Of a stretch of 64,000 nt of DNA, positions 1,009 through 17,177 are shown in pieces; the first letter of the stretch is position 1; each line of letters starts with the position of its first letter. The stretch lies in the NCBI GenBank assembly GCA_903930435.1, contig CAIYYN010000068.1, positions 1 through 64,000 of the forward strand, read 5' to 3'. The notes below the pieces were generated by a model. The model was given only the letters and a program-made list of their open reading frames with translations. It searched no databases and had not been told where the DNA came from. Source of the stretch: an uncultured Hyphomicrobiales bacterium. Its GTDB lineage: Bacteria; Pseudomonadota; Alphaproteobacteria; Rhizobiales; Ancalomicrobiaceae. A program made the position numbers and the translations under genes.

Positions 1009-4000
1009 CTACTTCCCCGCCACGACCTCAACCGACCCATAGCTCGTCCGGCCAAAGCGTTCAGGGCGATACATGTCCTCAATGGTCGCAGGCGGCAGGA
1101 TGTATTTGCCGGGTGCAACGGCGCGGATCATATAGGCCGCATAGAAGAATGCCGATTGACCGGGCGCCCGGTTGAAGGTCGCGACAAACCGGTCGTCGCG
1201 GTACTCGGTATGGACGGCTTCCATCTTGCCCTGATCGAGCCAATCAAAGCCGGAGAGATCGGCGGATGTGACGAGGTTGGGGTTATCGATCTCGAAACCA
1301 GCCGGCAGACGATCGACCAGCATCAGTTGCCCGTTGTCCGGCTTTGATTCCGTCACCTTGAGCACGACAACAAGCCGGTCGGTCTGTTTGACCTGCTTGG
1401 CATCGACCGTCGAGCCATCCAGCTTGTGGAACGTACGCTCAATTGCGAACCCTTGCGCCTGCGCCGGTTCCGGTTGGATGGGGTGTCCGGAGGCATTCAC
1501 GATCGCGCGCAACGGCGCCGGACCGCTGTTGGCGACCTTGACTGGATGGCCCGTCAGAGCGCTCGATTTGAAGGTCTGGTAATAGGCCCCCGGATGCGGC
1601 GTACCATCGACTGTCAAGGCGACTTGATCGGCCTCGCGGGCGGTCGCAAAGGCGGCCAGAACCATCCAGCTGTTTTCCTGGGTCGACGTATAGCGGATTG
1701 TTTCGCGGTTCGATCCGACCCACGATTCGACCTTCTGCAACAACGCCGGTTGCGCACCGGATTCTGCCATCAATGCAATCAGGCCCGCTCCGTCCCGCAG
1801 GGGCGTTCCGTAATCGGCTCGCCAGACGCGAGCCGGACCCATAGCCTGAAGCCGGACAAAGGCGGCTTCAAACAAGGGCTGCGCACGGCCTCGGTCTCCC
1901 AACAGGGCGAGCGCGGCCCCGACTTGGGCACGCGACAAGGGCGTCGCAAAGATGTCCGGCTTGGTGTCGGCGAGATAGCGGAGATCACCGATGATCGGGC
2001 GACCATTGCGTGCCAGCACATAGGCCGCATAGCCGATCTTGTCGGCATCGGCCTCTTTCGGTTCGCTCGTGTTGACGATGAAATTGCGCAGCCGGTCGAG
2101 TGCCGTCGACATGGCCACCTGCGGCACCTCAAAGCCGCGTTCACGGGCACGCGTCAGGAAGTCTGCCGCAAAACTGTCGAGCCAGATATCGTCATCGCCG
2201 CCTGCGCGCCAAAGACCGAACGCTCCGTTTGTATCCTGCCGGGACAGGACAGTTGCGATCGCCTTGCGGATACGTTCGTCAACACCACCGTCAAAATCGA
2301 GCGACGTGCTCGACGCGAGCTTGTTCACGTAGAGCAAGGGCATGGCGACCGAGACGGTCTGCTCCGTGCAGCCGTAGGGATAGCGATCCAGTTGCTTCAG
2401 CAGCGAGGCCACATCAAAGGCTGACTGAGGCGCGACCGACAGCGAAACAACGCCGGTGCCGTCGATGAACTCCTTGGTCAGGTCATCGGAGATCGTGATT
2501 GCCCCGCCATTGGCAGCAAGCGGCTGGATGGAGCGATGATAGACCGGCGGTGTCGCGGATTGCACCGGCACGGACAGGCTCTGGGAAACCGCGATCGTAC
2601 CTGCACCCACTTTGATGTCGAAAGTCGCGTTGCCCAGTCCCGTCGCATTGAAGGGAAGCGACAGTTGCGCCTTGCCCTTGGCGGCCAGCTTGATGCTTGG
2701 GTGCATGATGCCCGCCGCCATCGTCACCGGGCCGTGAACTTCCACGTCGACGGCATAATTGCCAGCAGGCCCCTCGACATTGTCGATGTTGAACTGCAAG
2801 CGGGACTGATCACCAATCGTGAGGAACCGTGGCAAGGTCGCCTGCACGACGATCGGGTCGCGTACGATGACATCGGCTTCGGCATGGCCGAGTTTCCCCG
2901 CCGTCCAGGCGACGGCAGCGACCCGCACGGTGCCATTGAACGTCGGAATATCGAAATCGACGTCTGCCGTGCCATCTGCGGCAACTGCCACAACGCCCGA
3001 ATAACGCGACAGAGGTGCCTGATCTGGCGGCCCCTGGATCTGCTTGGCATCGCCGTCACCACCTGACGTGATTGCGCCGCGCGTCCCCTGCATGCCGTCA
3101 ATCAGGTAGCCGTAGAGATCGCGCAAATCACCCGACATCATATGCTGGCCGAAGACGTGTTCCTCAGGGTTGGGCGTCTCGTAATGCGTGAGATTGAGAA
3201 TCCCGACATCGACCGCCGACACCGTCACATGCGCCATCTCGCCTGGTGCCAGGCCCGCCAGTTTCACATGCGTGGTCAGCGTCGCGCGCGGATGCATTTG
3301 TTTCGGCACATCCAGCGTCACGCCGAGGGTACGCGCCGGTCGATCCACGGCAAACCAGCCAACGCCGATGGCACGCCCGGGCATGCGGTGCGCGGCAACA
3401 TCCAATGGGCGGTAGGCCATGGCGACGACGTAGGCCCCTGCCCCCCAGTTGGCGTCCGCCGGGAAGGTGACCGTGGTGCCTGCCTTCTCGATATCCAGTT
3501 GCTGGATCGCTTCGATCCTGTCGGAGACGATGGCCACCGTTGCCTTGCCGGCAAAGCGCGGCGACAGCCGAACCTTCACGTCTTCACCGGCCGCATAGGC
3601 GGTCTTGTCGGTGGCCACATCAAGCACATCAGGCGTGTCCGCCTTGTCGGCCCCCTGCCAGCCAACGGAGAATGTGACCGACGTATGCGGATGGCCGGGA
3701 TCATCTGAGGCGACGTCGAGCCGATACTGCCCCCAATCGACGACGCTGGCGATATCGGCGGGCTTGCTCGCCGCAATATCGATGGTGCCATCGGCAATGC
3801 GTCGCACGGCCTTGACCACCTCGAAGTCCCAGTGCCCTTCGGAATTGTACCATTGGTAGCTGTGTTCAATCCGCGACAGGGTCCATTTGACGCCCTTCTT
3901 GACGAGCCTAGTCCCATCCGGTGCCGCGTAGACGACCTGGAATTTAGCCTGATTACCCGCCGACAGGCCATCGCCGAACTGTGATCTGACCGCCAGCACT

Positions 4001-6282
4001 GGAGCCTTCGGCAGGATCGGCAGCGTTACACTACGCTCGATGGCCCGACCGCCATTTTCGGTGATTTGCAGCGTTACACTGACCTGAAGCGGGCGTGTCG
4101 TTTCACCCTCGGGAAGCTCGACCGAAACCGATGCATGGCCCTTTTCGTCGGTGGTATTTTCGCCTTCGATGCTTTTTGCAATCGCCTCAAACGGCTCATC
4201 ATCCAGCCCGACGGTCCAGTCAGCCAGACCGGGAACCGTCGTTTGTGTCGCCAGTTCGATCTTCTGCGTACCCGTGATCGCCAAACCATCTGCGGGCGCG
4301 CCATAGAGATAGCTTGCATTCACGTCGAGCGACATTGGCTCGCCCGGATGCAACGTGGTCTGGCTGGTTGTCACCTTCATGTCGATGCGTTCGGGGACAT
4401 AATCCTCCACGAGGAAGGTCACATCACCAACCGCAGGCAGCTTGGGATCGGTAAAGGCCTGAACGTGCCAGGTCCCGGTTGGCAGACCCGAGACGAGCGG
4501 CAAAGCCCATGCCCGACCGCCTTCGCCCTGATCCTTGACCACTTCACGCTTGTATTCGACGCCATCGGAGCGCTCCGCGACCAGCGTCACGGGCAAACCG
4601 GACACTGACTTGCCCTTCACGTCGCGCAACAGGGTCGTGACGTTGACGGTCTCGCCTGACCGATAGACGCCACGTTCGGTATAGAGAAAGGCATCAACGC
4701 CCACCGGCGTCTCGCGACCCTTGACGCCGCGATCAGTCAGGTCGAACGCGTTCTGCTGCTGATCGAGGAAGCCATAATCGCCGTTGCCATCCTCGGCGAT
4801 GATCATGCCCGGCGACATGCCACCCTTGCCACGTGCGAGTCCTGCGTCGAACACGACATGACCGGATGCGTCCGTCTTCTTGGTATCAAGCACTTCATTG
4901 TTCTTCGCGATCAGCCGGACCTTGATATCCGCCCTGGACTCGGCCGTCGACAGCGAACGGACAAAGACATGCAAACCGTCGTTGGCGCCCGCAAAGGATG
5001 TCAGGCCCAGATCGGAGACGAGGAACCATTGCGTCGCCTTGGCGTTGTAGTCATCGCCCTTGCCATTGTCGGGACCGGCGACCATGACATAGATGCCCGG
5101 CTCCAGTTTGCCGACAGCCTCCATGAAAGGAAAGGCGGTGACGACATCCTTGTTCAGCTGCGATTTGACACTCAGCTTGCCGGTCCAGACCTCGACGCCC
5201 TTCTCCTCGGCGATCTTGTCGGCCTGATACTGCTGAAGCTGCTGCAGGAAATCCTCGGAGTGCACGGTCGTCGGCAGGCTACGGTCGCCGATGCGATAGA
5301 CACCAATCGCGACTTTCTCGGTGTTGACGGTCACGACCGGCAGGCCTTCCTGCCCGGTGCGCGGCAGCACGTAATTGCGACCGGTAAAATGCACGGAGGG
5401 GCTGCGATCCTTGACGTAGAGATCGTAGTCGGCGGACTTCAGCAAATCTTCGCCAACGGTAGACGGCAAGCCCTGACGGATCACGACATGGTAACTCTTG
5501 CCATGTTCGAGGCCCTCGACGCAGAGTTGCCGGTCACTGACGGACAAGGCGGGTGTGGCAATGCCGGTGACCGTAACATACGGCGTGAAGTCGGTTTTCC
5601 CGCCGGCGAGTTGCTCGGAGAACTGGAAGCAGGCGCGTGGCGTCACGGAATCGGAATCAAGCTTGTACTCCAGCAGTCGAAAACCGAATTCGACGCGCAA
5701 GTCAGCATAGGTCTTGCGAACGGCGGTGAAAGCCTCCCCCGTCAGGGAGGGGTCCAGTCCCTTCAAGCCAGCGCGCAGGATCTCAAGGGCCGTGCGCTGC
5801 TGCTTGTAGGTAACGGCATAAATCTGTGCCAGTGAATCCAGGGCCGTCGCTTCATCTGCCTTGTTAACCGCCCGCTGATACCCGACGTAGGCCGCAATTT
5901 CGGCTGACTGCTGAAACGCATAGTTCTCGGCGTATTTGTCGCTTTTCAGATAGGTCGTTGCGATGCCAAGCTGGTTCCAGGATAGCCAGTCCCTGGGGTC
6001 TAGAATGACGGCCTGGATGTAGAGATCCCGCGCCGCCTGATAGTCCTTGCGCGCCATGGCAGCAGCAGCATTGGCCTTGACCTTGGCAACCGGATCCTTG
6101 GAAGGCTTGATTTCAGCCTGCCATTTGGCTTCCAGCTTCACCGCCTCGCTGGCCATATAATCGTTCACATAGGCCTTGTGATCGGATGCCTTGGGGTCCA
6201 CCGCCTTCGTCTGCGCCAAGCCCGGCACCGCCAGCATGACAAGAACGAGCGCCGCAAAAAAACGCCTGGCAAGCCGATCCAT
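1009..6282 (-). CDS. Alpha-2-macroglobulin family protein with thioester motif
   Basis: A protein of 1,757 residues. The start at 6282 is preferred over 6303 because GGGGAG sits just upstream and the protein then opens with a clean signal peptide (MDRLARRFF, hydrophobic core, cut near GLAQ). There is no lipobox cysteine, so it should be a soluble periplasmic protein and not a lipoprotein like E. coli YfhM. Residues about 50-200 look like TPR-type helices. Bait-region and macroglobulin domains follow. The thioester motif G-C-T-E-Q-T is intact, with its cysteine near residue 1305. Bacterial members are thought to trap foreign proteases in the periplasm. The usual partner, penicillin-binding protein PbpC, is not beside it here. 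The gene is probably monocistronic; the next gene upstream on the same strand is a response regulator about 160 bases away. Confidence 0.9.
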   Translation of the reverse strand: MDRLARRFFAALVLVMLAVPGLAQTKAVDPKASDHKAYVNDYMASEAVKLEAKWQAEIKPSKDPVAKVKANAAAAMARKDYQAARDLYIQAVILDPRDWLSWNQLGIATTYLKSDKYAENYAFQQSAEIAAYVGYQRAVNKADEATALDSLAQIYAVTYKQQRTALEILRAGLKGLDPSLTGEAFTAVRKTYADLRVEFGFRLLEYKLDSDSVTPRACFQFSEQLAGGKTDFTPYVTVTGIATPALSVSDRQLCVEGLEHGKSYHVVIRQGLPSTVGEDLLKSADYDLYVKDRSPSVHFTGRNYVLPRTGQEGLPVVTVNTEKVAIGVYRIGDRSLPTTVHSEDFLQQLQQYQADKIAEEKGVEVWTGKLSVKSQLNKDVVTAFPFMEAVGKLEPGIYVMVAGPDNGKGDDYNAKATQWFLVSDLGLTSFAGANDGLHVFVRSLSTAESRADIKVRLIAKNNEVLDTKKTDASGHVVFDAGLARGKGGMSPGMIIAEDGNGDYGFLDQQQNAFDLTDRGVKGRETPVGVDAFLYTERGVYRSGETVNVTTLLRDVKGKSVSGLPVTLVAERSDGVEYKREVVKDQGEGGRAWALPLVSGLPTGTWHVQAFTDPKLPAVGDVTFLVEDYVPERIDMKVTTSQTTLHPGEPMSLDVNASYLYGAPADGLAITGTQKIELATQTTVPGLADWTVGLDDEPFEAIAKSIEGENTTDEKGHASVSVELPEGETTRPLQVSVTLQITENGGRAIERSVTLPILPKAPVLAVRSQFGDGLSAGNQAKFQVVYAAPDGTRLVKKGVKWTLSRIEHSYQWYNSEGHWDFEVVKAVRRIADGTIDIAASKPADIASVVDWGQYRLDVASDDPGHPHTSVTFSVGWQGADKADTPDVLDVATDKTAYAAGEDVKVRLSPRFAGKATVAIVSDRIEAIQQLDIEKAGTTVTFPADANWGAGAYVVAMAYRPLDVAAHRMPGRAIGVGWFAVDRPARTLGVTLDVPKQMHPRATLTTHVKLAGLAPGEMAHVTVSAVDVGILNLTHYETPNPEEHVFGQHMMSGDLRDLYGYLIDGMQGTRGAITSGGDGDAKQIQGPPDQAPLSRYSGVVAVAADGTADVDFDIPTFNGTVRVAAVAWTAGKLGHAEADVIVRDPIVVQATLPRFLTIGDQSRLQFNIDNVEGPAGNYAVDVEVHGPVTMAAGIMHPSIKLAAKGKAQLSLPFNATGLGNATFDIKVGAGTIAVSQSLSVPVQSATPPVYHRSIQPLAANGGAITISDDLTKEFIDGTGVVSLSVAPQSAFDVASLLKQLDRYPYGCTEQTVSVAMPLLYVNKLASSTSLDFDGGVDERIRKAIATVLSRQDTNGAFGLWRAGGDDDIWLDSFAADFLTRARERGFEVPQVAMSTALDRLRNFIVNTSEPKEADADKIGYAAYVLARNGRPIIGDLRYLADTKPDIFATPLSRAQVGAALALLGDRGRAQPLFEAAFVRLQAMGPARVWRADYGTPLRDGAGLIALMAESGAQPALLQKVESWVGSNRETIRYTSTQENSWMVLAAFATAREADQVALTVDGTPHPGAYYQTFKSSALTGHPVKVANSGPAPLRAIVNASGHPIQPEPAQAQGFAIERTFHKLDGSTVDAKQVKQTDRLVVVLKVTESKPDNGQLMLVDRLPAGFEIDNPNLVTSADLSGFDWLDQGKMEAVHTEYRDDRFVATFNRAPGQSAFFYAAYMIRAVAPGKYILPPATIEDMYRPERFGRTSYGSVEVVAGK

Positions 6283-6442
6283 CGTGTCACTCCCCGCGAC
6301 CAACGTCGCCGACTATTGTTTTATGTCACTGAAATCAGATGCATTCAAAAAGCCGGAATTTCCAGCGGTCACCAGAGTACCACAGGCGAGGGTTAAGGCA
6401 ACAAGATGGAGTGCGGATGACAGAAGCGCCGCCTATGGCTCT

Positions 6443-7354
6443 TCAATCCTCATTGATTGCCTTGAGCGCCAAAATGGCGGCGGAGGCACGGTTCTCGACG
6501 CCGAGTTTGGCGTAGACGGTTTCCAGATGCTTGTTCACGGTTCGTGGGCTGAGCCCCAGGATATCGCCGATATCGCGGTTGGATTTGCCGCGCGCGATCC
6601 ACACAAGCACTTCCGCCTCGCGGGAGGTCACCTGAAACCGGCGTTTCAGGGCAGCTTCCTCGCCGCCCACGTCATCGCTCATCAGGCGAAACAACAGCTC
6701 ATCATCGCCCGTGCGCCCGATCATCGACAAGGCAATGCGACGTGTCCCAATTTGACCGAGCACAATATTCGAGGAAGACTGGCCGTCCGCAACCGCCTTT
6801 CGCGCGGTTTCCGGCAGCTCGGTTCCCGTGCCGGACAGAACCTCGGCAATCAGCCGCGCGGCCTGCGGCGTTGCCCACAAGACATGACCCGAACTATTGA
6901 CCGCCAGCAGAAACCGCCCGGCGGTATCGAGTGCAAGGCGCGCACTGTGTTCGCGACGTGCATTGGCCATATGGACGCGGATCCGAGCCAACAATTCGTC
7001 GAGAATGATTGGCTTGGTAATATAATCGACGCCGCCTGCTTCCAGTCCGCGCACGATGTCTTCGGTCTCGGTCAGACCTGTCATGAACAGGATCGGTGTA
7101 TGGGCTGTCTGGGTCAGCGCCTTCAAGCGGCGACAGGTCTCGAAGCCATCCAGACCGGGCATGACCGCATCCAGCAGGATCACATCGGGCGAGATCCGGG
7201 TCACGATATCGAGCGCTTCCGTGCCACTGGTGGCTACCAGAACCATCGCACCGGTTGCCTCAAGCGCCTCGGTCAAAAAACCAAGGGTTTCCGGACTGTC
7301 ATCGACGACCAGAATGATGTTGCGGTGCAGTGATTGCGGATCGACGTCAGCCAT
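6443..7354 (-). CDS. LuxR-family response regulator paired with the permease-kinase
   Basis: A protein of 303 residues. The N-terminal receiver domain has LVVDDS, the phospho-acceptor aspartate in ILLDAVMPG at about residue 62, and a conserved lysine in the TKP motif. The middle section (about 130-230) resembles a degenerate PAS domain. The C-terminus is a LuxR/FixJ helix-turn-helix (TSREAEVLVWIARGKSN). The start at 7354 overlaps the stop of the upstream kinase gene in an ATGGCTGA junction, indicating translational coupling; an ATG at 7381 is possible but extends further into the kinase. It is therefore the likely output regulator of that kinase, and the divergent urea transport operon is an obvious target. 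The target and the signal are inferences. Confidence 0.9.
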   Translation of the reverse strand: MADVDPQSLHRNIILVVDDSPETLGFLTEALEATGAMVLVATSGTEALDIVTRISPDVILLDAVMPGLDGFETCRRLKALTQTAHTPILFMTGLTETEDIVRGLEAGGVDYITKPIILDELLARIRVHMANARREHSARLALDTAGRFLLAVNSSGHVLWATPQAARLIAEVLSGTGTELPETARKAVADGQSSSNIVLGQIGTRRIALSMIGRTGDDELLFRLMSDDVGGEEAALKRRFQVTSREAEVLVWIARGKSNRDIGDILGLSPRTVNKHLETVYAKLGVENRASAAILALKAINED

Positions 7355-10300
7355 CCACACCATCCGCCAAAGCAGCTTCATGCGCCGCTTCCTGCCCGAT
7401 TTCAGGGTCGGTTGCCGGTTCCAGATCCAGTTCCTCCAGCATGGTGATCAGGCCCGCCATATCAAATTGCGCCAGGTGCCGGGACAACGAAGCAAGAACG
7501 GGGCCGTTTTCAATTCCTTTGGCTGCCAATTCGCCAACGCGCTTCTCCAGACCGCTGCGATAGCCAATGCGCGCAAACTGAAGGAGTTCAGCGATATCCT
7601 TCGCGCTCAGCGCGGCAGCTGGAACGGGTTTCTCATCCAGTTGTTCCGAGACAGAAGGGGCAGGCTCTTCGACCATCACGCCTTCATCGAGCCACTCAAG
7701 CCCCAATTGAACACCAAGCCGCTCGACCAGTTGCCGGAGATCGAAGGGTTTGGCGATCGTGTCATCATAGGGCTGTTCTTCGACCGAGGGTGGTCGTGTC
7801 TCGCCAATATTGGCCGACAGAATGATGATGCGCGGCTTCGTCAGCCCCTTTGCCCGCAAGGCGCGCGCGAGGTCCCAGCCGTTCATGCCGGGCATGGAGA
7901 TATCGAGCAGGAACAGATCCGGCGTCAATTCCTGTGCAAGCGTCAGGCATCCCGCTGCATCAGCCGCCATCAGCACATTGAAACCGAGCGGCGTCAGGAT
8001 CTCGGCAACGAGATCCCGGTGCTCGGCATTGTCATCGACCACCATGATGGTCCGGCGACGTCCGCGATAGCCGCGGATCATCAACGGACCAGGCGGCGGC
8101 GCATCGGGTGCCGACACGCTCGCCAGCATCAACCGGACACGGAACTGGCTGCCCTTGCCCGGCTCGCTGGTGACCGAAATATCGCCCCCCATCAGCGTGG
8201 CCAGCATTTTGGTGATTGTCAGGCCAAGCCCGAGACCCGGTTGACCCGCCGCGCCCTCGCCTCGCTCGAACGGCTCGAAGATCCGTTGCAACTCCTCACG
8301 CGGGATGCCGGGACCCGTATCGCTGACGATGATCGTCGCGACATCATTGCGCAACGAGACCTGCAAGGTGACCGAGCCGGACGCGGTAAACTTGATGGCA
8401 TTCGACAACAGGTTGACCAGAACCTGACGCAGGCGCTTCTCGTCGGTGGCAACAACCTCTGGCAAAAATTCGGGGCGCGAGAACGTGAACGTCAGCCCCT
8501 TGGCTTCTGCCTGAAACCGGAACATGTCGTCGATCTGCGCCAGGAACTCGGCGAGACGCACCTGATTGCGAGCCAGTTGCAGACGTCCGGCCTCGATCTT
8601 CGAGATATCGAGCAGCCCGTCGATCAGGCCGGACAGATGTTCAGCCGACCGTCGGATGACCCGGACGGCATTCTGGCGCGGTTGCGGAATCGCGGTATCG
8701 CGTTCCAGCACCTGCGCATAGCCCATGACGGCGTTGAGCGGTGTCCGCAGTTCGTGGCTGAGGCCCACGAGATAGCGCGATTTGGCGAAATTGGCCGCTT
8801 CCGCCGCTTCCTTGGCCTTTTGCAGGGCAGCGTCAGTGCGCTCATGCGCCTTGATTTCGGCGAGCAGCAGGCTTGTCTGGCGTTTTGATTCCTCTTCGGC
8901 GACGCGACGGCTCTCATGCGCGAGCACGAAAAACCACGCGATGACACCAGCCACGATCAACGCAACAAAGAAGGCGGCCCAAAGTGCACGCGCCACGACA
9001 CTTGTCTCGGTCTCTCCGACCTGAAAATGGATGACCAGCAGCACCAGACTGATCACACCGGTGAGGAGCGCAAACAGCCCAAAGAATTCGACGAGCCGCT
9101 GACTGACATTATGAGCCAGAAACGCTGGCAGGATGGCCCGGATCGCAACGCGGGCCTGTGAGGCAGCGCGCGCATGCGGCTTGCAGAGATCGCCGCATCG
9201 GGCATCCAGCGAACAACACAGCGAGCAGATCGGCGCACCATAGGCCGGACAATAGGCACTATCCTCCGGCTCGAACTCATGTTCGCAGATCCGGCACTGG
9301 ATGGTTTTCATTGCGGCCCAACCAGCACGCGGTTTCCGGGCGAGATAATACCGACCGTCTGTTGCCCAGGCGATCAGTGGCGCAAGCGCAAGCGCGACCA
9401 CCAGGGACACAAATGGCGCAAAGGCCGCCGCCAGCACTCCGAACTCACCGGCGGCAGAGGCGAGCCCGAGGGTTGCCGCGCCCAGCATCGCACCGGTCCC
9501 GACCGGGTTCACGTCATAAAGATGCGCGCGCTTGAACTCGATGCCCGGCGGAGACAGGCCGAGCGGCTTGTTGATCGCGAGATCGGCGACAATCGCCCCA
9601 AGCCAGGATACTGCGAGGATCGAGAACAACCCGAGCGTCTTTTCCAGCGCCTGATAGATCCCCAGTTCCATCAGAAGGAGCGCGATGGCTACGTTGAAGA
9701 CAAGCCAGACGACCCGGCCCGGATGCGAATGCGTCAGCCGGGAAAAGAAGTTCGACCACGCGAGCGATCCGGCGTAGGCATTCATGACATTGATCTTGAG
9801 CTGCGACACCACGACAAAGGCCGCCGTCAGCACGAGCGCCATCTGCTTCGACGGCACCATATACTGGAAGGCGACGTCATACATGTAGGCGGGTTCACCG
9901 GCATGGATGCCCGGCACCCCATAGCGCAACGTGAGCACCGCCAGCAGAGATCCGGCAAAGAGCTTCGGCGCGCCGAGAAGCACCCAGCCGGGACCGGCCA
10001 GAAACAGCGCCGTGTACCAGTTCCGGTCAGCCACTCCTTGCGATCCCGGACTTTGGCGGTCAAACAGCTTGTCGGTCAGGGGATCGCGCTTCTGCTTGGC
10101 CGGCAGGAAGCGCAGGAAGTCGACCTGCTCACCTATCTGGGCAATCAACGACAGGATGACAGACGACGCCATGCCAAAGCGGACGAGATCGAAACTCTCC
10201 CAGATCGTGCCGGGTTGCCCGCCCGATTGCAGGCCACCGAATTGCTGCCACGCCACGATCTGCGGCCAGTCGTGCCAGACAATGAAAACGAAGGGCGCAA

Positions 10301-10859
10301 TATTCAAAAAGATCCAGAACGGCTGCGTCCACAGTTGGAAGCGCGAGATGGCGGTGATGCCGTAAATGACCAGCGGGATGACCGCGAGTGACGACAATAT
10401 ATAGGAGATCCAGAGCGGGATGCCGAAGGCCAGTTCAAGCGCCGACGACATGATCGAGGCTTCGATGGCAAACAGGATAAAGGTGAAGCTGGCATAGATC
10501 AGAGATGTGACCGTCGAGCCGATATAGCCGAAGCCTGCACCGCGTGTCAGCAGGTCGATGTCAACGCCATAGCGGGCGGCATAGCGGGAGATTGGCAGGC
10601 CGGTCACGAGCATGATGATCGAGACAACAACGATCGCAGCCGCCGCATTGATGAACCCATGCGCCAGCGTGATCGCGCCGCCAATCGCCTCAAGCGCCAG
10701 AAACGAAATCGCACCGATCGCCGTTTGCGCGATCCTCAGCGGCGACCACCGGCGTGCCGATTTGGCCGTGAACCGGAGCGCATAGTCCTCCAGCGTCTGA
10801 TTGGCGACGAATCGATTGTAATCCCGACGGATCGGCAAGATGCGCTGGCGCGAGAACAT
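7347..10859 (-). CDS. NCS1-family permease fused to a hybrid histidine kinase
   Basis: A protein of 1,170 residues. The start at 10859 is chosen for its AAAAGGAG ribosome site. Residues about 40-510 form a full multi-span NCS1 transporter, the family of cytosine, purine, allantoin and hydantoin permeases. Residues 517-560 are a cysteine-rich, zinc-ribbon-like stretch (CRIC, CSLCC, CGDLC). Two more membrane spans and a coiled coil follow. Then come HisKA with phospho-histidine about 702 (SHELRTP), HATPase (NLLSNAIKF, DTGPGIP, GLGLGL), a receiver with aspartate about 986 (LLDISMPG), and a helical tail. It is coupled to the LuxR-type regulator downstream and divergent from urtABCDE. By analogy with transporter-linked kinases such as CbrA, it may sense or import a nitrogen compound (urea, a nucleobase, a hydantoin) and control uptake. 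Substrate and signal cannot be read from sequence. Confidence 0.9.
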   Translation of the reverse strand: MFSRQRILPIRRDYNRFVANQTLEDYALRFTAKSARRWSPLRIAQTAIGAISFLALEAIGGAITLAHGFINAAAAIVVVSIIMLVTGLPISRYAARYGVDIDLLTRGAGFGYIGSTVTSLIYASFTFILFAIEASIMSSALELAFGIPLWISYILSSLAVIPLVIYGITAISRFQLWTQPFWIFLNIAPFVFIVWHDWPQIVAWQQFGGLQSGGQPGTIWESFDLVRFGMASSVILSLIAQIGEQVDFLRFLPAKQKRDPLTDKLFDRQSPGSQGVADRNWYTALFLAGPGWVLLGAPKLFAGSLLAVLTLRYGVPGIHAGEPAYMYDVAFQYMVPSKQMALVLTAAFVVVSQLKINVMNAYAGSLAWSNFFSRLTHSHPGRVVWLVFNVAIALLLMELGIYQALEKTLGLFSILAVSWLGAIVADLAINKPLGLSPPGIEFKRAHLYDVNPVGTGAMLGAATLGLASAAGEFGVLAAAFAPFVSLVVALALAPLIAWATDGRYYLARKPRAGWAAMKTIQCRICEHEFEPEDSAYCPAYGAPICSLCCSLDARCGDLCKPHARAASQARVAIRAILPAFLAHNVSQRLVEFFGLFALLTGVISLVLLVIHFQVGETETSVVARALWAAFFVALIVAGVIAWFFVLAHESRRVAEEESKRQTSLLLAEIKAHERTDAALQKAKEAAEAANFAKSRYLVGLSHELRTPLNAVMGYAQVLERDTAIPQPRQNAVRVIRRSAEHLSGLIDGLLDISKIEAGRLQLARNQVRLAEFLAQIDDMFRFQAEAKGLTFTFSRPEFLPEVVATDEKRLRQVLVNLLSNAIKFTASGSVTLQVSLRNDVATIIVSDTGPGIPREELQRIFEPFERGEGAAGQPGLGLGLTITKMLATLMGGDISVTSEPGKGSQFRVRLMLASVSAPDAPPPGPLMIRGYRGRRRTIMVVDDNAEHRDLVAEILTPLGFNVLMAADAAGCLTLAQELTPDLFLLDISMPGMNGWDLARALRAKGLTKPRIIILSANIGETRPPSVEEQPYDDTIAKPFDLRQLVERLGVQLGLEWLDEGVMVEEPAPSVSEQLDEKPVPAAALSAKDIAELLQFARIGYRSGLEKRVGELAAKGIENGPVLASLSRHLAQFDMAGLITMLEELDLEPATDPEIGQEAAHEAALADGVDG

Positions 10860-11179
10860 TGGACTCCTTTTGGCACCTATTCCGCCGCAAACGCAAGCAA
10901 GGACCATTCCAAGGGTGATGCCGGGTTGGCCTCCCTGCACGGCAGATGCCGGGATGACAGCGATAGACCGGCGAACTGCATCCCGACGACAGGTGCATCC
11001 AAACCCGATTCATTCCAATTTTTGCACACAAAACAGGCAAAAGTCCGATTAAAAAGTCCGCAAACCTCGAACTTACGCCAAATGACGTATGGGCGTTTGT
11101 TGCATTGCGGTGAAGTTTTGCGCCCAAGCGGTTCCAATCGGGGTCCGTGAAAACAATTGTCTGTTGAGAGGCGTGCTAC
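10860..11179. other. Divergent regulatory region between the permease-kinase and urtA
   Basis: No convincing gene lies in these 320 bases. They must carry the promoters of both the kinase operon (minus) and urtA (plus). A GG-N10-GC pair at 10872-10885 resembles a weak sigma-54 site but is nearly 300 bases from urtA. GAGAGG at 11166-11171 is the urtA ribosome site. Confidence 0.5.
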
Positions 11180-12460
11180 ATGTCTTTGTTCAAAACCATG
11201 ACCATCGCCGGAGCGGTACTTGCAGGGGCTCTCACAGCCTCGGCCGCACTGGCTGAAGACACCATCAAGGTCGGCGTTCTCCACTCGCTGTCGGGCACGA
11301 TGGCGATTTCGGAAACAACACTGAAGGACACCGTTCTGTTCCTCATCGACGAGCAGAACAAGAAGGGCGGCGTTCTCGGCAAGAAGCTCGAGCCAGTCGT
11401 CGTCGATCCGGCCTCCAACTGGCCGCTGTTTGCGGAAAAGGCTCGCGAGCTGATTTCGAAGGACAAGGTTTCGGTCGTGTTCGGCTGCTGGACCTCGGTT
11501 TCGCGCAAGTCGGTTCTGCCGGTGTTCAAGGAACTCAACTCGATCCTCTTCTATCCCGTCCAGTACGAGGGTGAAGAATCCGAGCGTAACGTGTTCTACA
11601 CGGGCGCTGCTCCGAACCAGCAGGCAATCCCGGCTGTTGACTACCTGATGTCGGCTGACGGCGGCTCAGTCAAGCGTTGGGTCCTCGCCGGTACCGACTA
11701 CGTTTATCCGCGCACCACCAACAAGATCCTCGAAGCCTATCTGAAGGCCAAGGGTGTTGCTGCTGAAGACATCATGATCAACTACACGCCGTTCGGTCAT
11801 TCCGATTGGCAGTCGATCGTCGCTGACATCAAGAAGTTCGGTTCGGCTGGCAAGAAGACCGCCGTCGTCTCGACCATCAACGGCGACGCCAACGTTCCAT
11901 TCTACAAGGAACTCGGCAACCAGGGCATCAAGGCAACCGACATTCCGGTTGTGGCCTTCTCGGTTGGTGAAGAAGAACTCGCTGGCCTCGATGCCAAGCC
12001 GCTGGTCGGCCATCTGGCTGCCTGGAACTACTTCGAGTCGATCAAGACGCCGGAAAATGCGCAGTTCATCAAGGACTGGCAGGCGTTCACAAAGAACCCG
12101 AAGCGCACAACCAATGACCCGATGGAAGCAACTGTCATCGGCTTCCATGCCTGGGTTGCTGCTGTGACCAAGGCTGGCACGACCGATACCGACAAGGTCA
12201 TCGACACCCTGCCGGGCACCAAGGTTCCGAACCTGACGGGCGGTACGGCTGAAGTTCTCCCGAACCACCACATCACCAAGCCGGTCTATATCGGCGAGAT
12301 CAAGGCTGACGGCCAGTTCGACATCGTCTGGCAGACCAAGTCTCTCGTCCCCGGCGCAGCCTGGAGCTCCTACCTCGAAGGCTCCAAGGATCTGGTTGCT
12401 GATTGGGTCACGCTCAAGTGCGGTAACTACAACACCATCACCAAGAAGTGCGGTGGTTGA
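11180..12460 (+). CDS. urtA: Urea ABC transporter, periplasmic urea-binding protein
   Basis: A protein of 426 residues with a signal peptide ending ASAALAE. The mature protein belongs to the branched-chain-amino-acid-type binding-protein fold (Peripla_BP_6) and opens IKVGVLHSLSGTMAISE, a hallmark of UrtA. It captures urea in the periplasm and hands it to UrtBC. It is the first gene of urtABCDE. The gap to urtB holds a hairpin and a palindromic repeat that could lower downstream expression relative to this abundant component. Its codon use is more biased toward preferred codons than its neighbours, as expected for a highly made binding protein. Expression is probably tied to nitrogen status. 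Confidence 0.97.
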   Translation: MSLFKTMTIAGAVLAGALTASAALAEDTIKVGVLHSLSGTMAISETTLKDTVLFLIDEQNKKGGVLGKKLEPVVVDPASNWPLFAEKARELISKDKVSVVFGCWTSVSRKSVLPVFKELNSILFYPVQYEGEESERNVFYTGAAPNQQAIPAVDYLMSADGGSVKRWVLAGTDYVYPRTTNKILEAYLKAKGVAAEDIMINYTPFGHSDWQSIVADIKKFGSAGKKTAVVSTINGDANVPFYKELGNQGIKATDIPVVAFSVGEEELAGLDAKPLVGHLAAWNYFESIKTPENAQFIKDWQAFTKNPKRTTNDPMEATVIGFHAWVAAVTKAGTTDTDKVIDTLPGTKVPNLTGGTAEVLPNHHITKPVYIGEIKADGQFDIVWQTKSLVPGAAWSSYLEGSKDLVADWVTLKCGNYNTITKKCGG

Positions 12461-12475
12461 TCTCCAGAACTCGGT

Positions 12476-12499
12476 CGGGTGCGGGGTCCCTCGTACCCG
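12476..12499 (+). terminator. Hairpin just after urtA
   Basis: CGGGT and ACCCG arms, extended inward by further GC and GU pairs, form a stem-loop 16 bases after the urtA stop. No T-run follows, so it is more likely a partial terminator or mRNA-stabilising hairpin than a full terminator. Confidence 0.4.
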
Positions 12500-12560
12500 G
12501 TCGCTGGATTTTGAAGCAAATGTCATACTGCATGTGTGATTTTTGAAAATACCAACTCCA

Positions 12561-12677
12561 GGCTCACCCCCCACCCTGACCCTCCCCCTGAAGGGGAGGG
12601 AATACCGACCGGATCGCGGAGATGCCCTTGGCGTCTCCTCCCCCCTTGAGGGGGAGGGTCAGGGTGGGGGGTGAGCC
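12561..12677. repeat. Palindromic intergenic repeat inside the urt operon (urtA-urtB)
   Basis: Two arms of about 40 bases (12561-12600 and about 12636-12677) are near-exact reverse complements. They run from GGCTCACCCCCCACCCTGA through CCTCCCC, and each contains its own small GC hairpin. About 35 bases separate them. This is the layout of the extragenic palindromes scattered through many rhizobial genomes. In the transcript it would fold into a very stable stem between urtA and urtB. An open frame running through it in phase with urtB is an artefact of the repeat. Confidence 0.85.
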
Positions 12678-12744
12678 AAACTCTGATATGTATATGTCGA
12701 ACGAAGAAACCGTTTCCCCGCGTCGACACTGGAATGAGACAGTC

Positions 12745-14364
12745 ATGTTGCAGTCACTCAAGACGCCCACCAGACTTGCCGCGCTCCTCATCGGGGCGCT
12801 TGTGCTGTTTCTGGCGATGGCCCTGCCCTCGGTCGCCCAGTCCATCGACGATGCGATTGCGAAACTGACCACTGACGGGTATTCGGACACTGCTGCCGCC
12901 ATCAATGCGCTGGCCACAAGTGGTAGCCCGCGTGCGCTGCCCATCGTGCAGGCGCTGAATGATGGCAAGCTGCAGTTTTCAGCCAGCGACAAGAAGGTCT
13001 TCATCGTCACGGCAACCGGACTGGTTGAAGCAGTTACCGGTGCGCCGGTTGCGACACCGCCCGCTGATATCAGCGACGTTCGCGCCAACAATCGGATCCG
13101 TGGCCTTGTGAACGCTGCGCTCGGCGCGCTCAGCCTGGCCAACCCAGATCCACAAAAGCGGATTGCCTCGGCTGACGCTGTCTTCAAGTCGCGTGACGAG
13201 GGAGCGCTTGCCGCACTCGACACGGCGATCGCCAACGAAACAAACTCAACTGTTGCCATCGCCTTCAAAGCGGCCAAAGCGGCCATCATCCTGTTCAAGG
13301 CCGATGCACCGGTCAATGATCGTGTGGCTGCCGCGCAGGCGATTCAATTGCGCGGAACGCAAGATGCCGTCGCGCTGCTGCGCTCGCTGCCCGCCGACAC
13401 CCCGAAGCCGGTGCTGGAGGCTGCCAACGCCAGCGCCAAGGCGATCGAATATAACCTCGCGCTCTGGTCGATGGCACAGAATGCCTGGTACGGACTGTCG
13501 CTCGGCTCGGTGCTGTTGCTGGCGGCTATCGGCCTTGCAATTACCTTCGGCGTCATGGGCATCATCAACATGGCGCATGGCGAAATGGTGATGATCGGTG
13601 CCTATGTCACCTTTGTCGTCCAGGAGATCATCCGCACGCGGTTTCCGGGCTTGTTTGACTGGTCGCTGACGATCGCCCTGCCGCTGGCGTTCATGACGTC
13701 AGGTCTGGTCGGCATCGCCATCGAACGCACAATCATCCGCTGGCTCTATGGCCGACCGCTCGACACGCTGCTGGCAACCTGGGGCATTTCGCTCGCGCTG
13801 CAACAGACCGTCCGCTCGATCTTTGGCGCTAACAATCGCGAGGTCGGGTCACCTTCGTGGATGTCCGGCTCGTTCCAGGTCGGCCAATTATCGATCACCT
13901 GGGGCCGGATGTGGATCATCGTGTTTGCGTTGATCGTGTTTGCCGGGCTGATCGCGATCCTGCGCCGCACGCCGCTTGGCCTGCAGATGCGGGCTGTCAC
14001 GCAGAACCGGTCGATGGCCAGCGCGATGGGCATTCCGACCGCCTGGATTGACGCACTGACCTTCGGCCTTGGTTGCGGCATTGCCGGGATCGCCGGTGTC
14101 GCGCTCTCGCAGATCGACAATGTCAGCCCGAACCTCGGGCAAGGCTATATCATCGACAGCTTCATGGTCGTGGTATTCGGTGGCGTCGGCAATCTCTGGG
14201 GAACGCTGGTTGGCGCAATGACGCTCGGCATCGTCAACAAGTTCCTTGAGCCGGTTGCCGGTGCCGTGCTCGGCAAGATCTTCGTGCTTGTCGCCATCAT
14301 CCTCTTCATCCAGAAGCGTCCGAGGGGGCTGTTCGCCCTCAAGGGCCGGGCGGTGGAATCATGA
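12745..14364 (+). CDS. urtB: Urea ABC transporter permease UrtB
   Basis: A protein of 539 residues. The start at 12745 is chosen because GGAATGAG precedes it and a signal peptide (MLQSLKTPTRLAALL...PSVAQS) follows; in-phase ATGs further upstream lie next to the repeat. Residues about 30-240 form a periplasmic helical extension typical of UrtB. The remainder is a LivH-type permease with MGIINMAHGEMVMIGAYV and several membrane spans. Together with UrtC it makes the inner-membrane urea channel. It overlaps urtC by four bases (ATGA). Confidence 0.96.
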   Translation: MLQSLKTPTRLAALLIGALVLFLAMALPSVAQSIDDAIAKLTTDGYSDTAAAINALATSGSPRALPIVQALNDGKLQFSASDKKVFIVTATGLVEAVTGAPVATPPADISDVRANNRIRGLVNAALGALSLANPDPQKRIASADAVFKSRDEGALAALDTAIANETNSTVAIAFKAAKAAIILFKADAPVNDRVAAAQAIQLRGTQDAVALLRSLPADTPKPVLEAANASAKAIEYNLALWSMAQNAWYGLSLGSVLLLAAIGLAITFGVMGIINMAHGEMVMIGAYVTFVVQEIIRTRFPGLFDWSLTIALPLAFMTSGLVGIAIERTIIRWLYGRPLDTLLATWGISLALQQTVRSIFGANNREVGSPSWMSGSFQVGQLSITWGRMWIIVFALIVFAGLIAILRRTPLGLQMRAVTQNRSMASAMGIPTAWIDALTFGLGCGIAGIAGVALSQIDNVSPNLGQGYIIDSFMVVVFGGVGNLWGTLVGAMTLGIVNKFLEPVAGAVLGKIFVLVAIILFIQKRPRGLFALKGRAVES

Positions 14365-15527
14365 TTATCTCGTTTCTCATCAAGGGTCTCGATCGCCGCA
14401 CGGCGATCTGCATGCTGGTCCTGCTCCTGATCTGTGCCGCCGTTCCCCTGTCGAACGCCTATCTGCCGGTCGGCCATCCGTTCCGCATTCCAACCGATGA
14501 AATGCTGCAATTCGGCAAATACGGGTCCTATGCCCTGCTCGCCGTGTCGCTTGATCTGGTCTGGGGCTATTGCGGCATCCTGTCGCTCGGGCACGGTGCG
14601 TTCTTCGCGCTCGGCGGCTATGCCATGGGCATGTACCTGATGCGACAGATCGGCGCGCGTGGCGTCTATGCCAACCCGATCCTGCCGGATTTCATGGTGT
14701 TCCTGAACTGGAAGGCGCTGCCGGTCACCTGGTACGGCTTCAACTGGTTCGGCTATGCGATGGTCATGGTACTGCTGGTCCCGGGGTTGCTGGCCTTTGT
14801 CTTCGGCTGGTTTGCCTTCCGCAGCCGCGTCACGGGCGTCTATCTCTCGATCATCACGCAGGCGATGACCTATGCCTTGCTGCTGGCGTTTTTCCGCAAT
14901 GACATGGGCTTTGGCGGCAACAACGGGCTGACCGATTTCAAGGACATCCTCGGCTATAATATCCAAGCGGATTCGACCCGGCGCGGGCTGTTCGTCGCCA
15001 CGATGCTCATGCTGTGTCTTGGGCTTTGGGTGGCATCAGGGATTGTCAATTCCAAGCTCGGCAAGGTCCTGATCGCGATTCGCGATGCCGAAAGCCGGAC
15101 ACGGTTCATCGGCTACCGCGTGGCCGAGTACAAGACCGTGATCTTCACGATTTCTGCCTGCATGGCCGGTGTTGCGGGCGCGCTCTATGTGCCGCAGGTG
15201 CTGATCATCAATCCCAGCGAATTCTCGCCTGGCAACTCGATTGAAGCCGTCATCTGGGTCGCGGTCGGCGGTCGCGGTACGCTGATCGGCGCCATCGTCG
15301 GAGCCGTCGCGGTCAACTGGGGCAAGACGTGGTTCACCGGACAGTTCCCGGAATTCTGGCTGTTCGCGCTGGGAGCCCTGTTTGTTGCCGGGCCGCTGCT
15401 GCTGCCAAAGGGCATCGTCGGTTCGATCTCCGACATGCTGGCCAAGAAGAAATCCAGCCAGATGTATGCCTCGTTGCCTGCAACATCTGAAGCGGTCGAG
15501 GACGGCGCCTCGCCGACTGTGGAGTAA
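14361..15527 (+). CDS. urtC: Urea ABC transporter permease UrtC
   Basis: A protein of 388 residues of the LivM permease type, with about ten membrane spans and the conserved LSLGHGAFFALGGYAMG segment. The EAA-like cytoplasmic loop is in the stretch IRDAESRTRFIGYRV. The start overlaps the urtB stop (ATGA), so the two permeases are translationally coupled. It ends three bases before urtD. The length agrees with UrtC proteins. Confidence 0.96.
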   Translation: MIISFLIKGLDRRTAICMLVLLLICAAVPLSNAYLPVGHPFRIPTDEMLQFGKYGSYALLAVSLDLVWGYCGILSLGHGAFFALGGYAMGMYLMRQIGARGVYANPILPDFMVFLNWKALPVTWYGFNWFGYAMVMVLLVPGLLAFVFGWFAFRSRVTGVYLSIITQAMTYALLLAFFRNDMGFGGNNGLTDFKDILGYNIQADSTRRGLFVATMLMLCLGLWVASGIVNSKLGKVLIAIRDAESRTRFIGYRVAEYKTVIFTISACMAGVAGALYVPQVLIINPSEFSPGNSIEAVIWVAVGGRGTLIGAIVGAVAVNWGKTWFTGQFPEFWLFALGALFVAGPLLLPKGIVGSISDMLAKKKSSQMYASLPATSEAVEDGASPTVE

Positions 15528-15530
15528 ACC

Positions 15531-16280
15531 ATGGATATTGCAGCCAATTCCATCCTCTATCTCGACGGTGTCGCAGTCTCCTTCGATGGTTACAAGGCCT
15601 TGCGCGGACTGTCGCTCGTCATTGAACCCGGCGAAATGCGCGCCATCATCGGCCCGAACGGCGCGGGCAAGACGACGATGATGGACATCATCACCGGCAA
15701 GACCCGGCCCGACGAAGGCGAAGTGCTGTTCGAGGGGTCTACGGATCTGACCAAACTCGATGAGGCCACCATCGCCGAGATGGGCATCGGACGAAAGTTC
15801 CAGAAGCCGACGGTGTTCGAAAGCCACACCGTGCGCGACAATCTCGTGCTCTCGCTGAAGGATAATCGCAGCCCGTTTGCAACGCTGTTTCATAGCTCGA
15901 CCGAAGAACAGGATGCGCGAATCGACGAGCTGCTCACCACCATCAAGCTGACCCATCGCGCCTATGATCTCGCCCGCAATCTCAGCCACGGCCAGAAGCA
16001 ATGGCTGGAAATCGGCATGTTGCTGGCCCAGGAACCGAAACTCCTGCTCGTTGATGAACCGGTCGCCGGCATGACCGACGCCGAGACCATGGAGACGGCG
16101 GCCCTGCTGCGCGAAATCAACAAGACCAAATCCGTCGTCGTCGTCGAGCACGACATGGCCTTTGTCCGCGAACTCGGCGTCAAGGTCACCGTTCTGCACG
16201 AAGGTGCCGTGCTCGCCGAGGGTCCCATCGACTATGTCGCGAATGATCCGAAAGTGATCGAAGTCTATCTGGGGCGTTAA
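15531..16280 (+). CDS. urtD: Urea ABC transporter ATPase UrtD
   Basis: A protein of 249 residues. Walker A is GPNGAGKTT, the signature is LSHGQKQWLEIG and Walker B is LLLVDEPVAGM. The LSHGQ signature and the MTDAET sequence after Walker B are characteristic of UrtD and not of general LivG proteins. It powers the UrtBC channel with UrtE. It starts three bases after urtC. Confidence 0.96.
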   Translation: MDIAANSILYLDGVAVSFDGYKALRGLSLVIEPGEMRAIIGPNGAGKTTMMDIITGKTRPDEGEVLFEGSTDLTKLDEATIAEMGIGRKFQKPTVFESHTVRDNLVLSLKDNRSPFATLFHSSTEEQDARIDELLTTIKLTHRAYDLARNLSHGQKQWLEIGMLLAQEPKLLLVDEPVAGMTDAETMETAALLREINKTKSVVVVEHDMAFVRELGVKVTVLHEGAVLAEGPIDYVANDPKVIEVYLGR

Positions 16281-16315
16281 CACACTGTCATTTCACCAGA
16301 ATGCGCGTTCAGTTG

Positions 16316-16437
16316 ACCCCTCATCCGCCCTTCCGGCACCTTCTCCCACAAGGGGAGAAGGCGACACAAACTGAGCGCTTTCGTTTGATCCTTCTCCCCT
16401 TGTGGGAGAAGGTGGCCAACGGCCGGATGAGGGGTGA
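16316..16437. repeat. Palindromic intergenic repeat inside the urt operon (urtD-urtE)
   Basis: A left arm (about 16316-16361) beginning ACCCCTCATCCG and a right arm (about 16390-16437) ending CGGATGAGGGGT are reverse complements. Each has an inner hairpin built on CTTCTCCC...GGGAGAAGG. This is a different repeat family from the one between urtA and urtB, but it is placed in the same way, in the only other sizeable gap of the operon. Confidence 0.85.
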
Positions 16438-16481
16438 AGCCAAACTCTCCGGCCCAAACAGTTGAACGATCGAGGTACCCG

Positions 16482-17177
16482 ATGCTGACAGTCAATTCGA
16501 TCGATCTCTACTATGGCGCGGCGCAGGCGTTGCGCGGGGTGTCTACCCATGCCGAGATCGGCAAGATCACCTGTGTTCTGGGGCGCAATGGCGTCGGCAA
16601 GACGTCGTTGCTGCGGGCGATCACCGGCCACCAGTCCATTGCCAACGGCAGTATCGAATGGGAAGGCCAGGTGCTCGGCAAGCTGGCCCCCTACGAGCGC
16701 GCACGACGCGGCATCGCCTTCGTGCCGCAGGGACGCGAAATCTTCCCGCTCTTGACGGTGCGCGAGAATCTCGAGACCGGCTTTGCCTGCCTGCCGCGTG
16801 GCCAGAAGAAGATCCCCGGCGAGATCTTCGAGCTGTTCCCGGTCCTGAAGGACATGATGGGGCGTCGCGGCGGCGATCTCTCCGGCGGCCAGCAGCAGCA
16901 ATTGGCCATCGGGCGGGCGCTCGTCACCAATCCCCGGCTGCTCGTGCTCGATGAACCGACCGAAGGCATCCAGCCGTCGATCATCAAGGATATCGGTCGC
17001 GCCCTCGATTACCTGCGCTCCAAAGGCACGATGGCCATTCTCCTGGTCGAGCAATATTTCGATTTCGCCCGCGAACTCGCCGATACCTACACTGTGCTTG
17101 ATCGCGGCGAAGTCGTCATCTCCGGCGACAAGTCCGACGTTGATCCCGAAGCCGTCCGCCGCAAGATCGCGGTTTGA
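16482..17177 (+). CDS. urtE: Urea ABC transporter ATPase UrtE
   Basis: A protein of 231 residues. The start at 16482 (GAGGTACCCG then ATG) gives MLTVNSIDLYYG, the normal N-terminus of UrtE; the frame is open further upstream only because it runs through the repeat. Walker A is GRNGVGKTS, the signature LSGGQQQQLAIG and Walker B LLVLDEPTEGIQPS. It is the second ATPase of the urea importer and the last gene of the operon. No urease or urea carboxylase genes follow in the window. Confidence 0.96.
   Translation: MLTVNSIDLYYGAAQALRGVSTHAEIGKITCVLGRNGVGKTSLLRAITGHQSIANGSIEWEGQVLGKLAPYERARRGIAFVPQGREIFPLLTVRENLETGFACLPRGQKKIPGEIFELFPVLKDMMGRRGGDLSGGQQQQLAIGRALVTNPRLLVLDEPTEGIQPSIIKDIGRALDYLRSKGTMAILLVEQYFDFARELADTYTVLDRGEVVISGDKSDVDPEAVRRKIAV

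Follow-up and report, generated by a model that had tools for sequence, protein, structure and literature searches.

We found a histidine kinase that is headed by a permease and encoded opposite a urea importer in a 64,000-nucleotide stretch of DNA from an uncultured Hyphomicrobiales bacterium (hereafter the window). This kinase is widespread, and it probably acts as a sensor whose permease-derived part detects urea, or a short-chain amide in its relatives, and which would activate urtABCDE through a LuxR-type regulator and a palindrome upstream of urtA. We favor a sensor of urea or short amides that controls their uptake because the gene linkage, the neighbors of the clade members and the candidate operator converge on it.

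The kinase ORF (7347-10859, minus strand) encodes 1,170 amino acids without an internal stop, and its identity is based on translation, Pfam and homologues. From the N-terminus, it comprises an NCS1-like permease domain (residues 1-505; 9345-10859), an eight-cysteine tail (residues 520-562; 9174-9302), two long helices leading from this tail to the kinase (residues 587-658; 8886-9101), HisKA (PF00512, residues 693-758; 8586-8783), HATPase_c (PF02518, residues 805-912; 8124-8447) and a receiver domain (PF00072, residues 938-1048; 7716-8048), all on the minus strand. The HisKA, HATPase_c and Response_reg scores all exceed the Pfam cut-offs, and both the phospho-acceptor H702 (within SHELRTP) and D986 (within LLDISMP) are present, as in a hybrid histidine kinase. 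An earlier note, made from the letters of this DNA, had already read a permease, a cysteine knuckle, two membrane spans, HisKA, HATPase and a receiver in one ORF of 1,170 residues. This layout is confirmed, and the positions given for H702 and D986 are correct. In the model, the helices after the cysteine segment span residues 587-613 and 619-658. A general Pfam scan detected no significant domain in residues 505-690. The NahK/ErcS hybrid kinase model (NF041832) gave 203.7 bits, below its cut-off of 400.

At the level of profile and predicted fold only, the permease domain is a distant branch of NCS1 (TC 2.A.39), because the Pfam model misses it while profile-profile comparison and the AlphaFold model detect it. 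PF02133, the Pfam NCS1 model, matched neither the kinase protein (E-values up to 10), nor any of 21 members of the family alignment (E-values up to 1), nor the source genome. In hhalign, a permease profile (residues 20-505) matched an alignment of five NCS1 sequences with a probability of 97.7 (E = 1.8e-12, 413 columns), while the controls UrtB and UrtC, as single sequences, gave 0.2. When the five NCS1 sequences were used singly, the probability was high for L036 only (96.9), and the other four gave 0.5-25.8. L036 scores above the PF02133 cut-off, and it had been recovered with the kinase's own query (P0002) at 22% identity. Since it is the sole high-scoring single sequence and was recovered with the same query, the profile-profile support for NCS1 is owed to the profile and in part to L036. 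For L148, a weak relative, both the cytosine permease model and TIGR00800 gave matches under their cut-offs (E = 1.6e-16 and 4e-11, respectively).

The AlphaFold2 model, built from a 32-row alignment, has a pLDDT of 82.7 and a pTM of 0.83. Its best matches among PDB structures are CodB (Z 32.6, 396 residues) and then Mhp1 (Z 28.8, 27.5 and 25.2); the next structure, at Z 24.9, ties with the lowest Mhp1 entry. SSS structures in the same match list have Z-scores below those of CodB and the two upper Mhp1 entries. The list also contains a plant DUR3 with bound urea (Z 23.7), a transporter of the SSS type, and urea binding by a LeuT-type fold therefore has a precedent, in another family. Searches with single permease-domain sequences found no PDB match and no Pfam NCS1 match, and a 21-row profile found only a chance zinc-finger match among PDB sequences. 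These blanks are misses of sequence methods and no argument against NCS1. Thus, the NCS1 label of the earlier note stands in terms of profile homology and closest fold, and fails in terms of the PF02133 gathering score. Residues Q241, E244-D247, K355-N357, N360 and Y362-S365 are invariant in the 32-row alignment.

The cysteines of the tail (C522, C525, C537, C545, C548, C549, C555 and C559) are invariant in the same alignment. We read eight stand-alone permeases of the clade, and the tail is complete in that of Methylovirgula, partial in those of Klebsiella, both Acinetobacter, Moraxella and Streptomyces, and decayed in those of Arthrobacter and Tsukamurella. In a search of 299 genomes with the cysteine tail, all strong matches (E-value 1e-10 or better) belonged to the permease-headed kinase family, and weak matches lay in short or mostly broken frames. 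Judged from these sequences, the cysteine segment is the C-terminal tail of the permease rather than a sensor acquired where permease and kinase were joined, because the stand-alone permeases mostly keep the whole or a part of it. For the same reason, we abandoned the idea that the segment is a second input specific to the kinase. The cysteine pattern suggests that the tail perhaps binds a metal.

The ORF of a LuxR-type response regulator (REC and GerE domains by Pfam; 6443-7381, minus strand), the predicted binder of the palindrome, overlaps the kinase ORF at its 3' end. At its 5' end, the kinase gene is separated by a spacer of 320 bp from the divergent urtABCDE (11180-17177, plus strand). 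This operon comprises urtA for the binding protein of the urea ABC transporter (11180-12460; TIGR03407, 550 bits with a cut-off of 493), urtB (12622-14364; TIGR03409), urtC (14361-15527; TIGR03408), urtD (15531-16280; TIGR03411) and urtE (16434-17177; TIGR03410). All five subunits score above the NCBIfam cut-offs. Hence, both the coupling to a LuxR regulator and the position opposite urtABCDE, as described in the earlier note, are confirmed. The source genome has a urease on a contig other than that of the kinase, and an FmdA query, run without a positive control, found no match in this genome. A second urtA-like gene (66%; G000:C56:287-1528) also lies on another contig. The window UrtB carries about 285 extra N-terminal residues beyond the UrtB model.

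Of the 385 genomes examined in the class, 27 were matched by the window kinase query (P0002), comprising 25 full-length fusions (source genome included), one truncated copy and one weak stand-alone permease. A search that started from a stand-alone relative gave matches in 52 of the 398 phylum genomes. In named GTDB genomes, at least 594 stretches were confirmed, among which a single locus may count twice because two patterns were used; the 80 distinct loci kept are the best matches and are biased to close relatives. The permease part is also matched by 530 plasmid records, 342 of which are from Klebsiella, and the kinase neighborhood was read in one of these Klebsiella plasmids (L037). There, a 49%-identical kinase lies opposite urtABCDE-amiF, and after it comes a reading frame for the regulator (44%) that is missing from the gene table of the plasmid. 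Creatininase-family fragments are found some 5-6 kb beyond this kinase.

We then investigated the loci of the homologues. In the class sample of 24 full-length fused loci, the regulator is adjacent in 24/24, and urtA is divergent within 3 kb in 17/24 or downstream on the kinase strand in 3/24; the fetched stretch contains no urtA in the other four (L057, L058, L059 and L061). Among the best 80 named loci, with their bias to close relatives, the regulator adjoins the kinase in 80/80. The fetched flank contains urtA in 77 of these loci (divergent within 3 kb in 67 and at a greater distance, but on that side too, in 10), and two of the three without it are at contig ends. One named locus (L112) has no urt gene within reach, and the ten ORFs scanned in L057, L058 and L112 matched either no family or unrelated ones. 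The phylum sample consists of 53 of the 58 matches to the stand-alone query, namely those previously unread, and 52 of them are kinase-fused. A urt, urease or fmdA gene is within reach in 50 of these 52, and the two misses are an ended contig and a 4.8-kb contig. The regulator was found in 45/53 loci by a 300-nt rule and in five more at 312-491 nt; L215, L226 and the stand-alone L247 are without it. L215 (8199-10856) and L226 (8163-10847) encode receiver-less kinases of 885-894 amino acids, with fmdA near and without an adjacent regulator or the palindrome. Linkage of the homologues to urea or nucleobase genes, on which the earlier note had staked its proposal, is present as urea or amide linkage in the class, named and phylum samples. 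The nitrogen-source sensor proposed there is the best reading, given the transporter-kinase fusion, the LuxR coupling and the linkage to urea uptake.

The linked importers are of two kinds. In the first kind, UrtA is about 65-89% identical to the window UrtA and is often accompanied by urease. In the second kind, UrtA is 36-41% identical to that of the window and is usually found with the formamidase FmdA, often also with the amidase AmiE. We labeled 66 kinase rows of the tree according to our readings of their neighborhoods: 45 have an Fmd-type partner (a second-kind UrtA or FmdA), 17 have Urt and 4 have urease. The partner type changes only four times on the tree (the minimum is two for three types), suggesting a clade-wise specialization for ligands. 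All nine rows of the clade to which the window kinase belongs are Urt-linked.

The kinase-urtA spacer contains a palindrome, TACGCCAAATGACGTA (11074-11089), of the form TACGTCA-NN-TGACGTA, with its center 98 bp before urtA. This is the predicted operator of the regulator. Judged from the window alone, it falls short of significance, since such a site also turns up in 18 of 100 shuffles, and its weight therefore lies in its conservation across spacers. Of 75 dereplicated kinase-target spacers (from 111), 54 contain the dyad TACG-N8-CGTA, whereas the commonest dyad of equal arm length in 20 mononucleotide shuffles reached a mean of 5.65 and a maximum of 8. The longer consensus is about ATACGTCA-NN-TGACGTAT. 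Sorted by divergent target, the palindrome is found before Urt in 20/22 spacers, Fmd-type importers in 32/44 (missing in 12), urease in 0/7, FmdA in 1/1 and a stand-alone permease in 1/1. Its center is a median of 100 bp before the target start, whereas the kinase start can be anywhere between 67 and 766 bp away from it. Counted without dereplication, there are 95 palindromes in 28,736 bp of spacer (3.31 per kb) versus 19 in 2,265,404 bp elsewhere in the same loci (0.0084 per kb). Sinorhizobium meliloti RU11/001 has a kinase of 1,126 amino acids together with the regulator, a divergent urtA (75%) and a palindrome immediately before urtA.

The palindrome also accompanies urtA away from the kinase. 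When urtA is 0.9-11 kb from the kinase, it is kept in 33/42 cases and missing in nine, at a median of 97 bp before urtA (without dereplication), and the 33 include three loci in which the kinase itself faces urease (L158, L199 and L221). In the urt-less loci L058, L059, L061 and L112, the palindrome is upstream of the kinase itself, and L057 has none. In kinase-less genomes of the class, as classified by the class-wide P0002 search, no exact palindrome was found within 400 bp before urtA (0/20, from the best 30 urtA places), and two genes had one with a single mismatch. Kinase-bearing genomes have nine further urtA genes without an exact palindrome: seven are at least 9 kb from the kinase or on another contig, and two are beside it. 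The palindrome precedes neither ureA (0/7 near the kinase and 0/33 far, 0/40 in total) nor ureD (0/34), and the predicted regulon is thus the importer and not urease. Away from the kinase, it precedes fmdA in 7/65 cases and an amidase in 1/29. A refined pattern has four matches in the source genome, that of the window and three others. We took these three, one of which is inside an ORF, as chance, because a reversed control pattern has 13 matches.

We also investigated the genetic loci of the eight stand-alone permeases, and six lie within or next to genes for urease, formamidase or amidase. The gene is found after ureG in Klebsiella, before ureEFG/ureABC in Acinetobacter johnsonii, adjoining fmdA in Moraxella, near fmdA in Tsukamurella and adjoining an aliphatic amidase gene in Arthrobacter. 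In Methylovirgula, it is together with the kinase, regulator, formamidase and amidase. That of A. baumannii is divergent from the kinase and has a palindrome 111 bp before it, and that of Streptomyces has no urea or amide neighbor. The stand-alone relatives are annotated as allantoin or cytosine permeases. In a quick tree, all eight group together in a single clade within the set of rows used (SH-aLRT 99); a ninth stand-alone permease (L247, 31% identical) is outside this tree. Saturation of the branches to the NCS1 outgroup, which are up to 10 long, makes the order of stand-alone and fused forms unreadable from the root. The rooted tree allows that the stand-alone permeases may be derived from sensors through kinase loss. 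The copy of the receiver-less L215 (tree row L178) is their sister in the tree. About even weight may be given to a wider proposal: that these proteins represent an overlooked NCS1-like clade of permeases for urea and short amides, and that the kinase-fused members are urea/amide sensors of many Proteobacteria, which would use the same pocket and ligand and control urt or fmd genes via a dedicated palindrome. As separate observations, 'cytosine/allantoin permease' genes beside urease in L152 (7956-9563) and L040 (5663-7270) look like candidate urea permeases. Alignment column 129, the strongest of three columns considered as ligand residues, has L in 17/21 urea-linked and F in 45/45 amide-linked kinases. 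However, all eight stand-alone permeases have F, including those in urease clusters, and we dropped this column as a ligand marker.

In the proposed mechanism, the permease domain, probably of a urea- or amide-handling NCS1 branch, would bind its ligand in a LeuT-type pocket. The conformational change would pass through the cysteine tail and the two helices to HisKA and HATPase. Phosphate would then move from H702 to D986 and, possibly by way of phosphotransfer, on to the LuxR-type regulator encoded next to the kinase, which would bind TACGYCA-NN-TGRCGTA about 100 bp before urtA and activate urtABCDE. We prefer urea as the ligand in the source organism, because it has true urt genes, a urease on another contig and no FmdA match, and its kinase belongs to a Urt-linked clade. 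The Fmd-linked relatives may sense formamide or acetamide rather than urea.

Alternatively, all members might sense formamide, acetamide or a wider range of small amides, with urea sensed weakly or not at all and the urt genes of the window driven by amides. The majority of Fmd-type partners on the tree (45 of 66, against 17 Urt and 4 urease) and the frequency of FmdA and AmiE beside the kinase agree with this, and the part of PMC10781810 available to us reports that the fmd cluster of M. methylotrophus is induced by formamide and urea alike. We nevertheless consider an amide-only family unlikely, since the clade of the window kinase is wholly Urt-linked, the source genome has a urease and gave no FmdA match, and the four partner changes suggest that ligands are specialized by clade. 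It is still less probable that the permease domain, instead of receiving a ligand, serves only to anchor the kinase passively in the membrane or offers a contact surface for reading UrtBC or the nitrogen state of the cell. The kinase does adjoin an ABC importer, and transporter-kinase complexes such as BceAB-S exist, according to the accessible part of PMC11109136. However, in some relatives the gene opposite the kinase is for urease or a stand-alone permease and not urt, and the alignment shows the invariant residues listed above, from Q241 to S365, in the permease domain.

The earlier note had supposed a nucleobase-type ligand. A sensor of nucleobases, hydantoin or allantoin, with the urea genes downstream of purine breakdown, would fit the NCS1 fold (CodB and Mhp1) and the annotation of the stand-alone relatives. 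Genes of the HyuA/HyuB type (hydantoinase/oxoprolinase) are within reach in L049, L138 and L140, and the creatininase-family fragments of L037 could be read in the same way. However, 161 of 164 loci have no HyuA/HyuB match (one query each), and the gene table of six annotated kinase loci, which is incomplete, shows no genes for purine or hydantoin. The partners are genes for urea, formamide and acetamide, and we regard a nucleobase-type ligand as highly improbable.

Transporter-kinase fusions are already known (CbrA, CrbS, RpuS and Ks-Amt5), and what appears new, in the literature within our reach, is the NCS1-like head and the palindrome. Like the window kinase, the SLC5-STAC kinases CbrA and CrbS/RpuS have a LeuT-fold transporter N-terminal to the kinase. 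CrbS further resembles it in having a LuxR-type regulator (CrbR) and a comparable inverted repeat before the target promoter, as far as described in the available part of PMC5715377. In contrast, the window transporter is NCS1-like by fold and profile, the cysteine tail and two helices appear to take the place of STAC, and the partners of its family are urea and amide genes. Ks-Amt5 likewise fuses a nitrogen transporter fold to a histidine kinase (PMC5764959), but this fold is Amt/Rh and the substrate is ammonium. CodB and Mhp1, the best structural matches, share only 14-16% identity with the window permease, which differs from them in escaping PF02133 detection and in having a cysteine tail and a kinase. 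The fmdCABDEF cluster of Methylophilus similarly combines a formamidase with a urea/amide importer and is induced by formamide and urea, although no kinase is described in the accessible text of PMC10781810.

PMC13296017 names a second urt operon with a histidine kinase gene and a LuxR gene next to it. The Klebsiella urt-amiF cluster is named in PMC13060141, in whose available text the word 'kinase' is absent. In PMC13209695, an fmdA-linked urt transporter is suggested to take up formamide, and 'histidine kinase' is absent from the accessible text. The parts of these three papers that were available do not describe the permease domain. A literature search, with subscription papers outside its reach, found no paper that describes the fusion of NCS1 to a kinase or the urtA palindrome. 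If our interpretation is correct, a further transporter type would join SLC5 and Amt among permease-headed kinases, and a common uptake system would gain a candidate urea sensor. A group of stand-alone permeases next to urease genes, now annotated for allantoin or cytosine, would be re-assigned to urea or amides. The exact DNA site would make the predicted regulon directly testable.

Two other features of the neighborhood were observed. Chemoreceptor (MCP) genes are found near the kinase in the window (20626-22710) and in L057 (4334-6364), which might be a coincidence. A gene for a bacterial alpha-2-macroglobulin of about 1,760 amino acids (1009-6303) adjoins the regulator gene in the window.
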